NCBI GenBank assembly: GCA_022578605.1
Contig: MU394116.1
Location: 173,104-237,103, forward strand
DNA: 64,000 bases
DNA from: Camillea tinctor
Taxonomy: Eukaryota; Ascomycota; Sordariomycetes; Xylariales; Xylariaceae
Reading direction: 5' to 3'
Part shown: positions 27,531 to 43,400 of the stretch, piece after piece
How positions within the stretch are numbered: position 1 is the first letter of the stretch
Layout of the letters: each line of letters begins with the position of its first letter
Notes under the pieces: generated by a model
What the model saw: the letters and a program-made list of their open reading frames with translations, nothing else
What the model was told of the DNA's origin: nothing
Databases searched by the model: none
Program-made: the position numbers and the translations under genes

Positions 27531-28431
27531 TGGACTCATAAACTAATTATGATAAACATAGCATGGAAGATAAATAGCAAGGTGGAGATATTGAGTCTTA
27601 TTAATTATCAAAAGATCTGTGTTCATAAGGCCATCGTGGTTGAGATCTTTAAAAGGGGGACATCACGTAAAACGCAACCCTGTGTTGGAATTTTTATTTG
27701 CGAACAGTTTAAGGCAGTTTCAATCACAAAAGAACATTTTGATTACCGAAAGACTAAAAATGCCATCAGAGTTGTCACTGTCGATAATCCGTGAACGGAT
27801 GTAGAATTCATGCTACTTTACTCCCAGCCCCAATCTCTCAGCTCCGGTCCACTTCACGCTGCAGCGCGCGGTATTCCGACGGATCGGTTCTAGTTGACAG
27901 CAGACTTCATTGCGCTCTTTTTCACGAGGTACGCGTATGCAGTAGACATATAATGCTTGACCTAGACCTCCAACTGATCTCTAGAGACGTGATGACTATT
28001 TTATTATAAGGAATATCCTAATCAGGATGAAGAGTTAAGATTCCAGTTCAATCCGGAGCTTCATTTTTTCCTCTTTTTCCTTTGAAGGCGCCCCAAGCGT
28101 TTCAAGGGAGTCCGTGCTTCCTTCTCTCTCCACTAATTAGGTATCGTGTCCTCACTGCCGTGCTAAGCTTGGGTAGTCCTTCGTAGGGTTTCGATTCCGG
28201 GCTTGTGGAGAAGATGGGTTGTTTCGACGAATCACATAATACGCACAAAATGAGTAAAATACGAACAAGAGACAGGCAAAACCGTTAAAAGCTATTTTTC
28301 TCTACAGCATAAGGGGAAAGACTGGAAGAAGTGCATTGCCGGTTATACGAGAAGACCAAAAAAAAAACTGTAAAAAAAAAGGGGGAAAAACTTGGTTGCA
28401 ATCCTAGTTTTCTAGGAAGCATCAGGAATTG
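27531..28431. other. Intergenic region downstream of the regulator
   Basis: No gene seen. The right end holds the tRNA 3' flank with its T-run terminators. Confidence 0.6.
28372..28390 (-). terminator. Pol III terminator T-runs
   Basis: Reading the minus strand past the tRNA 3' end, T5 (28386-28390) is followed by C5 and T9 (28372-28380). These are the first T-runs of four or more after the tRNA, about 42 nt beyond its end. Confidence 0.6.
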
Positions 28432-28570
28432 AGCCCGATGCGGGGGTCGAACCTGTGAACTCGTGTGTTAGCATGGGACAACAAACTTGCTGGAGGAGGA
28501 TTGGGATTAGCTACTAACCCGCAACCTTGAGATTAAGAGTCTCACGCTCTACCGATTGAGCTAACCGGGC
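28432..28570 (-). tRNA. tRNA-Lys(CUU) with a 66-nt insert in the T arm
   Basis: All cloverleaf parts are present on the minus strand. The acceptor stem pairs GCCCGGT with ATCGGGC, with one G-T pair. The D arm is GCTC/GAGC. The anticodon arm is TGAGA-CTCTTAA-TCTCA, giving anticodon CTT, with no intron at the usual 37/38 site. The T stem, however, is cut after GCGG by 66 nt (28453-28518). Removing them restores a perfect GCGGG-TTCGACC-CCCGC T arm and a 73-nt tRNA with a T discriminator. The A box lies at 28552-28563. The B box GGTTCGACCCC remains intact at 28443-28453, so Pol III transcription should still be possible. Confidence 0.85.
28453..28518 (-). other. Insert in tRNA-Lys with spliceosomal intron signals
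   Basis: The 66-nt segment begins GTTAGT and ends TTCACAG, and TGCTAACAC lies about 15 nt before the AG. These are the donor, branch and acceptor signals of the protein-gene introns in this window. Its length is also in the usual range. A repeated GGTT at both ends leaves four equivalent placements, only one of which gives GT-AG, so an insertion with a 4-bp duplication cannot be excluded. Confidence 0.6.
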
Positions 28571-29091: not shown

Positions 29092-31107
29092 TTAGCTAGT
29101 AAAATGAGGCGCATTGAGGAAGAGACCCATGAGGACTCCGCCAATCGTGCCGGCGATGGGAATGGTCATGATCCAAGAGAGTAGGAGGAGACCGACTCGC
29201 TGGAAATTAACAGCTTTGATGGTTCCGTTGCAGAGACCAACACCAACAGTGGCACCGGTGATGCACATGGAAGTCGATACGGGTAATGAGAACTGAGAGA
29301 ATACGAGAACTGTAATAGCAGCTCCCATCTCCATGGATGAACCTCTGCTAGGAGAGTGGTATGTAATCTTGTTACCCATGACTATTTTATACGAGTTAGA
29401 AAAATCAGGACATTACTAGTACATCATTGGTCAAGACTTACCCTTCATGATGTTGTATCCGTACGTGATAAGACCAAGGGAAATGGTTGCAGAAAGAACG
29501 GCAAGCTGCCAAATAGGAACGGGAGCCTTAGATGCAGCCGCATCGCCCGTGGACCAGGCCGTGTAGATGACAGCCCAAGGACCGACTGAGTTTCCAATAT
29601 CGTTGGCACCATGAGCAAACGATGCAGTGCAAGCAGTGATAATCTGGACAAAAGAGTACGTGTGTTCGACTTCGTTAGGGTACTTCTCTGCATGGGCATA
29701 TACACACTGCATACGCTCGCCTTCGGGGGTACCGGCGATACCAGACTGGGCGGCGTGAATGTCGTAGTGGAGACCATAAAGCAGCCCGCAGACAATCATA
29801 GCTGGGACGCGTTTTGCCATGATCACGAGGTTGTGCGTTTCATAGATTGCACCGGGACCCATTGGGTTGTCGCGGAGTGTACGCATAGCCCAGCCTAGAG
29901 GCCCGCGCTTCTTCAGAAGTTTTGCATGAAGTCTGTCCTCTCCCTCGGAAACTATGTCCTTATATGTAGCTTGTCTAGTCTCGTTCGTAACAAGCTTCTT
30001 CTCGTTTTCCTGGACGGTATTGGCGACGTTCTGCGTTGAATCGGATTCCACCAAGGATTCTGGCGAGCGGGTGGACGACACCTCCTCATGATCCTGGACC
30101 ACAGCATAGTCGGGGACGTCAGCCTTATCGCAGTCGGCCGGAGGAGGGCGCTTGAAAAGAAGAGGGCCTTGAATAAACATCCACCATTTGACGGTGTGAC
30201 TAGAAACGAAACTGTCAATATATTATCCGGACGGTATGATGAACAGGGTGAAAATTAAATGAGAAATGAAGAGAATTACGTACTCCTTCCTGATGACCTT
30301 CGAGTGCACATAGGGAACGAAGAACAAAGCCGACAGAAGGCAAAGACCGCCACCTGTGCCCATGGTCACAGCGGCAATATACCAGCCCGGCCTCTCCTTG
30401 AGGTTGAGGTTGGGCGATCCCTTATAGACGATTGATAGCGTACAAATAGTTCCGGCGATGAGGAAGAAGAACGGGGATGTCCAGACAGCCCACGGTACGG
30501 GATTCTTGCGCACATGCACAGTAAGCTTGATGAGCATAAATATGATGGCGCCGAATCCACCAGAGATCACAGGTGCCATGCCCAAGCCAGCGAAGATGGC
30601 ACCAAGACCCTTGCCGTTGTTCCAGCCCCATTGCACCTGAGAGGCACCGGCAGTCGCAACACCAACACCAGCAACCGCCGAGATGAGAGAGTATGTGGAG
30701 GAAACGTGAGCTGAGTGTCGCGTGCACCACATCACCCACGTAGACGCGGCAGCAAGCGCACAGGTAAACGCGAGCATCTGGACACCAGCATTATCGCGGA
30801 ATGCCTCGTTGGGGATAATGCCATTCTTGATGGTCTCGGCTGTTCGCGCACCAACCGTGATAGCTCCGAGCATCTCAAATATAGTACCGAATATCATCGC
30901 CTGTCTGTAGGTAATAGATCTTGAAGAAACACTGGTTGCCCAGGCGTTGGCCACATCATCTAATTCGTAATTGTAAGTAATCGAGCTTATATATAATAAA
31001 GAAACTCCATGATGAGTATATTACTTACTTGCACCATTGTTGTATGCGTCTAGCATGGCAAACAATGTGCCGATCACAAAGACATAGGTATATTCGTCGA
31101 GAGCCAT
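29092..31107 (-). CDS. pho89: Phosphate permease, PHO4/Pho89 family (Na+-phosphate symporter)
   Basis: Four exons, 31029-31107, 30284-30959, 29442-30199 and 29092-29381, encode 600 residues. Two copies of the family signature are present: GAND at residues 25-28 leading into VANAWATSVSSRSIT, and GANDIGNSVGPW at 449-460. Hydrophobic helices flank each copy, and a hydrophilic loop (about residues 270-365, rich in Glu, Asp, Ser and Thr) separates the two halves, the usual topology. The protein imports inorganic phosphate across the plasma membrane, coupled to sodium in characterised fungal members (Neurospora PHO-4, yeast Pho89). The first intron splits the first signature codon for codon in phase. 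Two CACGTG boxes upstream suggest phosphate-starvation control. Length agrees with the family. Confidence 0.95.
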
Positions 31108-40473: not shown

Positions 40474-43400
40474 ATGGCTGCTCGTAACAGTCTGGCGCCA
40501 ACGACACTACAGGTAGACACTCGTGTCCGCCCGAGAAGTGATACAGCCGAAACAAGAGCCGTGACACCCTCCGGATCATTTGTGTCGAATGCCTCCAACC
40601 CATTCTTAACACCTGCTATCTCAAATCCGTTCCGGACGCCGGCCTCGTCGGACTGTGGATCAAGCGTCCTGGGTGTAGATGCAGAAAGCGCACTCCGTCC
40701 GGATCCCGGCACGGAAGCCGACTTTCAAGTCCAGGACAACCCATTTGCTTTTAGCCCCGGTCAGCTGAACAAACTTTTGAATCCAAAATCTCTAGATGCA
40801 TTCCGGGCATTAGGCGGGCTCACCGGAATTGCACGAGGCCTACAAACAGACATCGACGCTGGTCTAAGCATCGACGAGACGTCCGTCCGATCAAACGTAA
40901 CATTTGAACAAGCTGTGAGACGGACGTCCGACAAATTCCCAGAAACCTCAGAACGGACAGCGTCTGTATCTGAATCGTTCGGTGACCGCACCAGAGTTTA
41001 TGGCAGAAACATATTACCCTCAAAGAAAGCCACGCCACTGTGGAAGCTCGCGTGGAACGCGTACAATGATAAAGTAATTATTCTCCTGACCGTGGCGGCG
41101 GTAATCTCACTGGCTCTTGGTCTATATGAAACCTTTGGACAAACGCCTGCTCCCGGCGACCCCCCTTCCTTGGACTGGGTAGAGGGTGTTGCCATCGTTG
41201 TTGCGATTCTCATCGTCACGATAGTAGGCTCACTCAACGACTGGCAAAAAGAACGGGCTTTTGTCCGCTTGAACGCCAAAAAGGAAGACAGGGAAATCAA
41301 AGTTGTCCGTTCGGGTAAATCTTTTATGATAAATGTTCACGAAATCCTGGCCGGCGATGTTTTGCACCTCGAGCCCGGCGATCTCATCCCAGTTGATGGG
41401 ATATTCATTAACGGTCACGATCTAAAGTGCGACGAGTCTTCAGCAACCGGCGAGTCAGACGCTATAAAGAAAATGCCTGGCGAGCAGGTCATGTCACTAC
41501 TCGAGTCCGGTGCGAGCCCTAAGGGGCTTGATCCTTTCATCATTTCTGGCGCCAAGGTCCTCGAGGGAGTGGGCACATTCCTCTGCACCTCAGTCGGGGT
41601 TAACTCCAGCTTCGGCAAGATCATGATGTCTGTCCGCACTGAAATCGAGGCGACCCCCCTTCAGAAGAAACTCGAGAGACTCGCAGTAGCTATTGCCAAA
41701 CTAGGGGCCAGTGCAGCCATCCTGCTGTTCCTCGTGCTCCTCATTCGGTTCCTCGCTGGCCTACCGACGGATACGCGCTCGGGCCCCCAAAAGGCCTCCG
41801 TCTTCCTAGACATCCTCATCGTAGCCGTGACGATTGTTGTCGTGGCTGTGCCTGAGGGGTTGCCCCTGGCTGTAACCTTAGCACTGGCTTTTGCCACCAC
41901 AAGGCTCCTGAAAGAGAACAATCTAGTACGCGTTCTCCGCGCCTGTGAGACCATGGGCAACGCCACCACAATTTGCTCTGATAAGACGGGCACCTTGACC
42001 ACCAACCGGATGACCGTAGTAGCTGGGACCTTTGGCCGCTCGAATTTCGCCAAATCAGATGGCGAGAAAAGCAGCAGCGGGCACTCAGTGGCCCAGTGGG
42101 CGTCGGAGCTGAACCAACCAGCCAAGGATACTATTGTGCAATCGGTGGCCATCAACTCCACAGCCTTTGAAGGCGAAGAAAACGGGCAGGCTACGTTCAT
42201 TGGATCTAAGACAGAAACTGCCTTGCTCCAGCTGGCGCGGGATCATCTAGGCATGCAGTCGCTAGCCCAGGCTCGCGCCAATGAACAGACGATACAGATG
42301 ATGCCGTTCGACTCAGGCAAGAAGTGCATGGGCGCTGTGATCAAAGTAGGCTCCCAATACCGCCTGCTAGTTAAGGGGGCGTCGGAGATCCTCCTGGGCT
42401 ATTGCAGCGAAAAGGCTGACATTGAGACGCTGGCTGCAAGCACGCTTACTGGGGATGATCGTGTCGAGTTGACCTCCACCATCGACACGTATGCTAAGGG
42501 TTCTCTCCGTACCATAGGGCTCGTGTATCGGGATTTCCCCCAGTGGCCTCCCGTGCATGCAGAAATCGAAGACGGCAATGTGCAGTTTTCTTCGATCCTC
42601 AAGGACCTCGTGTGGCTTGGTGTTGTTGGCATCCAAGATCCAGTGAGGCCAGGCGTGCCGGACGCTGTCCGGATGGCTCAGCACGCGGGCGTCACGGTCC
42701 GCATGGTCACTGGAGATAATGCTGTCACTGCCCAGGCTATCGCAACTGAATGTGGCATATATACTGACGGTGTTATCATGGAGGGACCTGTCTTCCGAAC
42801 TTTGAGCGATGAGAAGATGGATGAGCTATTGCCCAAATTACAGGTACTCGCGCGATCTTCTCCAGAGGACAAGCGTATCTTGGTTGCGAAGCTCAAGTCT
42901 CTCGGTGAAACTGTCGCTGTTACTGGAGACGGCACGAATGATGCGCCGGCCCTTAAGACGGCGGATGTCGGATTTTCCATGGGTATTTGCGGAACCGAAG
43001 TTGCTAAGGAGGCCTCGGAGATCGTGTTGATGGACGACAACTTCACGTCCATCCTCACTGCCCTGAAATGGGGCCGAGCGGTCAACGACTCAGTCCAAAA
43101 GTTTCTTCAGGTAAGATATTTCATTTCATTATTTTTCTTTGAAAACCCTTAACTAATCTCGGATGTCTAGTTCCAAATCACCGTCAACATCACTGCAGTC
43201 CTGCTTGCCTTCATCTCAGCTGTTGTTGACCCGAATATGCATTCTGTGCTGACGGCCGTGCAACTCCTGTGGGTCAACCTCATCATGGACACCTTCGCCG
43301 CTCTGGCATTGGCTACGGATCCGCCGACGGATAAGATCCTCAACAGGCCACCGCAGCCTAAGAGCGCGCCCCTTATTACGGTCAACATGTGGAAGATGAT

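Follow-up and report, generated by a model that had tools for sequence, protein, structure and literature searches.

Nuclear tRNA splicing is generally described as a protein-only process that stands apart from the spliceosome. Fungal U6 snRNA, by comparison, is a Pol III transcript that in S. pombe, and also in the genome studied here, carries a short GT..CTAAC..AG intron, thought, according to the portions of PMC10484740 used here, to have arisen by reverse splicing close to the catalytic nucleotides. U6 itself belongs to the spliceosomal RNAs, whereas a tRNA has no spliceosomal link, and an intron such as the one described below breaks the T stem of its compact fold. The fungal U3 snoRNA is another small structured RNA encoded by paralogous genes, the introns of which follow GTRWGT, RCTRAC and YAG with a mean branch distance of 15 nt (PMC5832005, section 3.2). 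It is not a tRNA, and the introns of its paralogues are “almost always” very similar (PMC5832005), in contrast to the near-random insert interiors reported here. In the passages of the same paper on which we draw, U3 and U6 were in 2017 the sole small structured RNAs in which introns were known to be frequent.

Among tRNA genes themselves, canonical nuclear introns lie at 37/38 and are excised by the tRNA splicing endonuclease (Sen). Four sister genes of the locus described here carry such an intron of 8 nt, from which the T-arm inserts differ in their site, in being about eight times longer and in bearing GT-AG and branch signals. Out-of-place introns in nucleomorphs, C. merolae and archaea likewise interrupt the D or T arm, with archaeal sites that include 53/54, but they depend on a bulge-helix-bulge (BHB) motif and the endonuclease or on an unknown route, and in Guillardia they measure 3-24 nt (PMC4090602, in the parts cited). 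The same parts of this 2014 review take their eukaryotic out-of-place introns from nucleomorphs and C. merolae and do not contain the string “spliceosom”. Searches of open-licence PMC papers brought up no account of tRNA genes with spliceosomal introns; subscription papers and preprints lay outside this scope, and priority for such introns is therefore not established.

The window, meaning the whole stretch of 64,000 nucleotides that was analysed, comes from Camillea tinctor, an ascomycete of the order Xylariales; when 450 residues of its Ca2+-ATPase were searched, a Camillea tinctor protein proved 100% identical, and the closest matches after it were those of Biscogniauxia (91-94%). With a probability of roughly 0.85, the window contains a nuclear tRNA-Lys(CUU) gene that works and that shares with two paralogues a predicted U2-type spliceosomal intron between mature positions 52 and 53 (Table 1).

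Table 1. The interrupted tRNA-Lys(CUU) gene and the protein-gene introns compared with it, in window coordinates.
Feature	Positions	Strand	Remarks
tRNA-Lys(CUU) gene, T arm interrupted	28432..28570	-	joined 73-nt form called tRNA-Lys(ctt) by ARAGORN
5' exon, 52 nt, mature positions 1-52	28519..28570	-	identical in 7/7 tRNA-Lys(CUU) genes found, 8-nt intron aside
66-nt insert at 52/53, predicted spliceosomal intron	28453..28518	-	GTTAGT...GCTAAC...CAG
Donor GTTAGT	28513..28518	-	GTGAGT and GTAAGT in the other two copies
Predicted branch site CTAAC	28467..28471	-	branch A is 28468; the insert ends 15 nt further on
Acceptor CAG	28453..28455	-	TAG in the other two copies
3' exon, 21 nt, mature positions 53-73	28432..28452	-	same in the C18 copy and the four 37/38-intron genes
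Putative Pol III A box TTAGCTCAATCGG	28552..28564	-	position located in the sequence
Putative Pol III B box GGTTCGACCCC	28443..28453	-	first G is the last base of the insert; position located in the sequence
Structured 3' trailer between tRNA and T run	28391..28431	-	hairpin at 28401-28418; common to 7/7 genes
T5 run, Pol III terminator-like	28386..28390	-	followed by T9 at 28372-28380
Ca2+-ATPase intron GTAAGA..TTAAC..TAG, 60 nt	43111..43170	+	exact splice yields annotated protein P0121
Phosphate permease intron GTAAGT..CTAAC..TAG, 60 nt	29382..29441	-	gap against homologue P0056; boundaries by eye
Phosphate permease intron GTACGT..TTGAC..TAG, 84 nt	30200..30283	-	gap against homologues; boundaries by eye

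The 5' exon holds the 5' strand of the acceptor stem, the D arm and the anticodon arm with CUU, and it reaches into the T stem; position 37/38 is empty, and the insert parts T-stem positions 52 and 53, its boundary allowing five equivalent placements, one of which gives GT..AG. Joining the exons restores a regular 73-nt tRNA. The initial annotation had described a cloverleaf with a CTT anticodon and nothing at 37/38, with 66 nt inside the T stem whose excision leaves a 73-nt tRNA, and had likened a GTTAGT start, a branch motif about 15 nt before the end and a CAG end to the signals of local protein-gene introns. All of this was borne out on the minus strand, with the branch motif in the form GCTAAC at 15 nt and with similar donors, branch sites and acceptors in the three protein-gene introns of the window. 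Surveys of tRNA genes may miss or misjudge genes of this kind: ARAGORN with its intron option on makes no call on the interrupted copy and reports 0 genes across the whole window, and the Rfam tRNA model matches it at 28516-28570 with 30.8 bits, barely above the cut-off of 29 (the other two interrupted copies, on contigs C60 and C18, score 49.6 and 51.8 bits).

Alongside the regular cloverleaf obtained by excision, the features of a functional tRNA gene can be read in the sequence as an A box, a B box and a T run, the boxes being stretches that we take to correspond to the Pol III consensus. The A box lies entirely within the 5' exon. Because the B box begins with the final G of the insert, an AG-ended intron at 52/53 keeps the promoter intact, and this completion of the B box may be a reason why 52/53 was a tolerable insertion site. 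A B box that is intact with or without splicing would also suit genes that are transcribed but retain the insert, fully or conditionally, and act as TFIIIC-binding sites, give rise to another small RNA or form a tRNA reserve under regulation; the conservation of the trailer hairpin in its own right points the same way. However, GTNAGT, YTRAC at 13-15 nt and YAG would be superfluous in a TFIIIC site or another RNA, as would the intactness of the acceptor and anticodon arms, and a retained insert is considered very improbable.

When the genome was searched at the DNA level for the 73-nt form, seven tRNA-Lys(CUU) places emerged. Three of them (C66, which is the window, C60 and C18) have an insert at exactly 52/53 and no intron at 37/38, and the other four (C48, C47, C22 and C1) have an 8-nt intron, the equivalent placements of which include 37/38. 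The search for an uninterrupted tRNA-Lys(CUU), proposed in the initial annotation, ended in four genes with an uninterrupted T arm, each with a 37/38 intron. A pattern for the anticodon arm, run on the same genome with up to two mismatches, gave 12 matches against 6 for the reversed-pattern control; these were the same seven genes, two tRNA-Lys(UUU)-like sequences, called Lys(ttt) and Gly(tcc) by ARAGORN, and three unrelated ones. The tRNA search of the genome scored 63 of 1531 candidates, with at least 59 matches. Between the three interrupted genes the exons differ at a single site, a C-to-T change in the acceptor stem of the C60 copy that retains a G-U pair, and T runs are found 3' of all seven genes. 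Judging from these sequences, mature tRNA-Lys(CUU) could derive from both kinds of gene. As four genes have an uninterrupted T arm, mature tRNA alone would not prove T-arm splicing, and the three interrupted genes could be dispensable, since the four others yield the same mature tRNA.

The three inserts measure 66 (window), 63 and 61 nt, comparable with the 60, 60 and 84 nt of the protein-gene introns in the window and the 60 nt of the U6 intron, a small sample. Each begins with GT and ends with AG as U2-type introns do. The donors GTTAGT, GTGAGT and GTAAGT all fit GTNAGT, with one mismatch to GTRWGT in one of the three; the acceptors are CAG, TAG and TAG; and CTAAC, CTGAC and TTAAC stand 15, 15 and 13 nt before the end, as part of GCTAAC, CCTGAC and GTTAAC, which are near RCTRAY and fall within 6-36 nt of the acceptor. 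Set against the U3 consensus, the donor GTTAGT and the branch sites CCTGAC and GTTAAC have one mismatch each. Excision from GT to AG leads to an ARAGORN call of tRNA-Lys(ctt) in all three joined sequences. The initial annotation took as a premise that U6 genes of some fungi carry mRNA-type introns, and this genome is such a case: its U6 gene (L036, G000:C10:489447-489606) has an intron of the form GTAAGT..CTAAC..CAG in which 11 nt separate the branch A from the end; this intron contains a B-box-like stretch, GTTCGAATC.

In their interiors the inserts are pairwise 51, 57 and 53% identical, against 49-50% for shuffles, and the observed pair scores were reached by 120, 1 and 8 of 500 shuffles, respectively. 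Since the similarity within two of the pairs is matched by few shuffles, the three inserts probably share an ancestor, yet appear to be near saturation, and their signals are then not three independent events, so that the shuffle frequencies of the three inserts should not be multiplied. With every equivalent placement allowed, GTNNGT..YAG ends together with YTRAC at 10-25 nt arose in 2, 5 and 10 of 300,000 shuffles of the three inserts, and in 186, 209 and 204 per 300,000 when GGT was granted as a target duplication. A chance origin of the splice signals was rejected on these frequencies and on the recurrence of this arrangement, at an identical site, in two further loci, which makes chance untenable. 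The force of the argument lies in splice signals that were retained while the remaining insert sequence drifted.

An origin from a mobile element or introner was also rejected: a search of the genome with each insert (E up to 10) found only that insert itself and no related copies, and the length of the end repeat is not uniform. The initial annotation had named, as grounds against splicing, an insert matching a mobile element with 4-bp GGTT target duplications. No such match emerged from the genome, and the duplication does not hold as a general feature, GGTT being present in the window copy only and the repeat in the other two copies being 3 bp long; the window copy may combine a 3-bp target duplication with one chance-matching base.

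The three genes might instead be dead copies, disrupted by inserted DNA, in a fungus that relies on the four 37/38-intron genes only. The same mature tRNA is indeed encoded by those four, and insertions in the D or T arm of eukaryotic tRNA genes were supposed to be marks of pseudogenes in the cited portions of the 2014 review (PMC4090602). The preservation of 73 of 73 bases (72 of 73 in C60) would nevertheless be surprising in dead genes, and three separate loci have undamaged exons, an A and a B box, a T run and the covarying trailer. Furthermore, the interiors of the inserts have diverged to near-random similarity with the splice signals retained, and the inserts lack matches elsewhere in the genome. 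Loss of function thus appears very improbable, if the least so of the alternatives considered.

Excision by Sen, of the kind known for out-of-place introns of red algae and nucleomorphs, has precedents, as introns outside 37/38, some of them in the T arm, occur in C. merolae and nucleomorphs (PMC4090602, in part), and many out-of-place introns of Guillardia are without a defined BHB motif (PMC3978253, in the sections cited). The features conserved here, GTNAGT, the branch and AG, are however spliceosomal signals, and removal by Sen is the least probable of the explanations weighed. No complete BHB motif was found among 13 placements in the three genes, a result that counts for little because the 37/38 control from the same genome also fails the strict test and because Guillardia introns without a clear BHB exist.

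If the genes are working ones with a spliceosomal intron, as preferred here, Pol III, directed by the A and B boxes, would transcribe the window gene past the trailer hairpin and on to the T run. U1 would then pair with GTNAGT, the adenosine of YTRAC would attack and YAG would serve as the 3' splice site; after excision the T stem-loop would close, and the usual trimming and modification of the tRNA would follow. As the T loop can assume its mature shape only after loss of the insert, general tRNA biology suggests that splicing probably precedes those maturation steps in which the T arm is recognised. The proposal of the initial annotation, that the spliceosome acts on a Pol III transcript here, finds support at the level of sequence, where three paralogous inserts keep their splice signals and little else, with intact exons, boxes and T runs, inserts unmatched elsewhere and an mRNA-type intron in U6 as further points in its favour. 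What can be read directly is the anatomy, the identity of the site, the signals kept as against near-saturated interiors, and the intact exons and promoter boxes; Pol III transcription, spliceosomal (U1/U2-dependent) excision and use of the product are predicted for these genes. The claim as a whole may be regarded as a strong prediction, short of demonstration.

On nearly as firm a footing stands the broader reading that two splicing systems of a single genome serve one nuclear tRNA isoacceptor, with the tRNA endonuclease acting at 37/38 on four genes and the spliceosome at 52/53 on the remaining three. If true, the T-arm inserts would represent a class of tRNA intron that is cut out of a Pol III transcript by the mRNA machinery and has been retained long enough for intron interiors to saturate. 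A spliceosome-dependent tRNA would further mean that the mRNA machinery is able to act on a folded Pol III transcript and that part of the tRNA supply is tied to spliceosome activity. Three different intron sequences at one site also provide an opening for the study of intron gain in a tRNA family.

Searches for further cases covered both contig collections and the genome itself. Exact patterns for the interrupted and the uninterrupted gene had 0 matches in viral_contigs and genome_contigs, collections of viruses and prokaryotes that are silent on fungal relatives. Within the genome, the pattern YAGGTTCGANYCC gave 67 matches against 17 for the reversed-pattern control, and 43 of the 67 were read by eye, namely 30 with 95 to 190 nt of upstream sequence (C18 included), 11 more, and the C60 and C66 copies. 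Besides the three Lys genes, no T-arm-interrupted tRNA was seen among these 43, and the other 24 all bear the 13-mer TAGGTTCGATTCC.

This 13-mer, present in 47 of the 67 pattern matches, marks a SINE-like repeat that is dispersed in the genome and has a core resembling a B box; the repeat accounts for 23 of the 30 matches in the first batch read by eye. In these 23 copies TAGGTTCGATTCC is preceded by flanks such as AAGTGTAG and followed by flanks such as TATGAGCGCTATTGG, with variants. Loci of the repeat include L037, L039-L048, L051, L053-L056, L059-L064, L066 and others.

The 3' trailer offers an observation common to both kinds of gene. The motif TCAAWTCCYGRTGC, the first T of which is position 73 of the tRNA, occurs in all seven tRNA-Lys(CUU) genes (the window copy and L009-L012, L014 and L015) and is followed, as read by eye in the seven, by a hairpin of 6-7 bp that ends 7-16 nt before the T run. 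In shuffle statistics that ignore kinship among the seven related rows, 5 of 7 pairs are changed on both sides (reached by 2 of 500 shuffles), 47 of 49 cells pair (0 of 500) and the covariation score exceeds all 500 shuffles, with further pair types being unexceptional (88 of 500). The motif was not found in the 3' flanks of 31 other tRNA predictions, two of which (L083 and L098) have a stable 3' hairpin of different sequence. The trailer 14-mer has ten exact matches in the genome; seven are the tRNA-Lys(CUU) genes, and in the remaining three no tRNA-Lys precedes the motif, the one on C23 folding into a 6-bp hairpin in a different register. The trailer with its hairpin may serve as a signal for processing or represent a small RNA of its own.

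Several other RNA-like loci came to light in the course of the genome searches. The tRNA-like predictions L083, L086 and L098 (His/Tyr) have similar 3' flanks, GCTTGTTTGTTAAAG, and are perhaps another tRNA-derived repeat. At L123 (G000:C13:270076-270699) an RNase MRP RNA match extends across 624 bases against a model of 266 positions; a simple scan of this locus for GTRWGT..CTRAC..YAG gave no match. On contig C14, L058:1131-1523 is a tRNA-shaped RNA candidate of 393 nt with an acceptor stem, a D arm that includes an A-box-like stretch, a T arm that includes a B box, and a T run; in place of the anticodon arm it has a 10+9-bp stem with a large multi-hairpin domain. The candidate has no Rfam match at E<=1, and RNase P, MRP and SRP RNA matches lie at other places in the genome. 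Its z-score is -5.36 against 100 shuffles.
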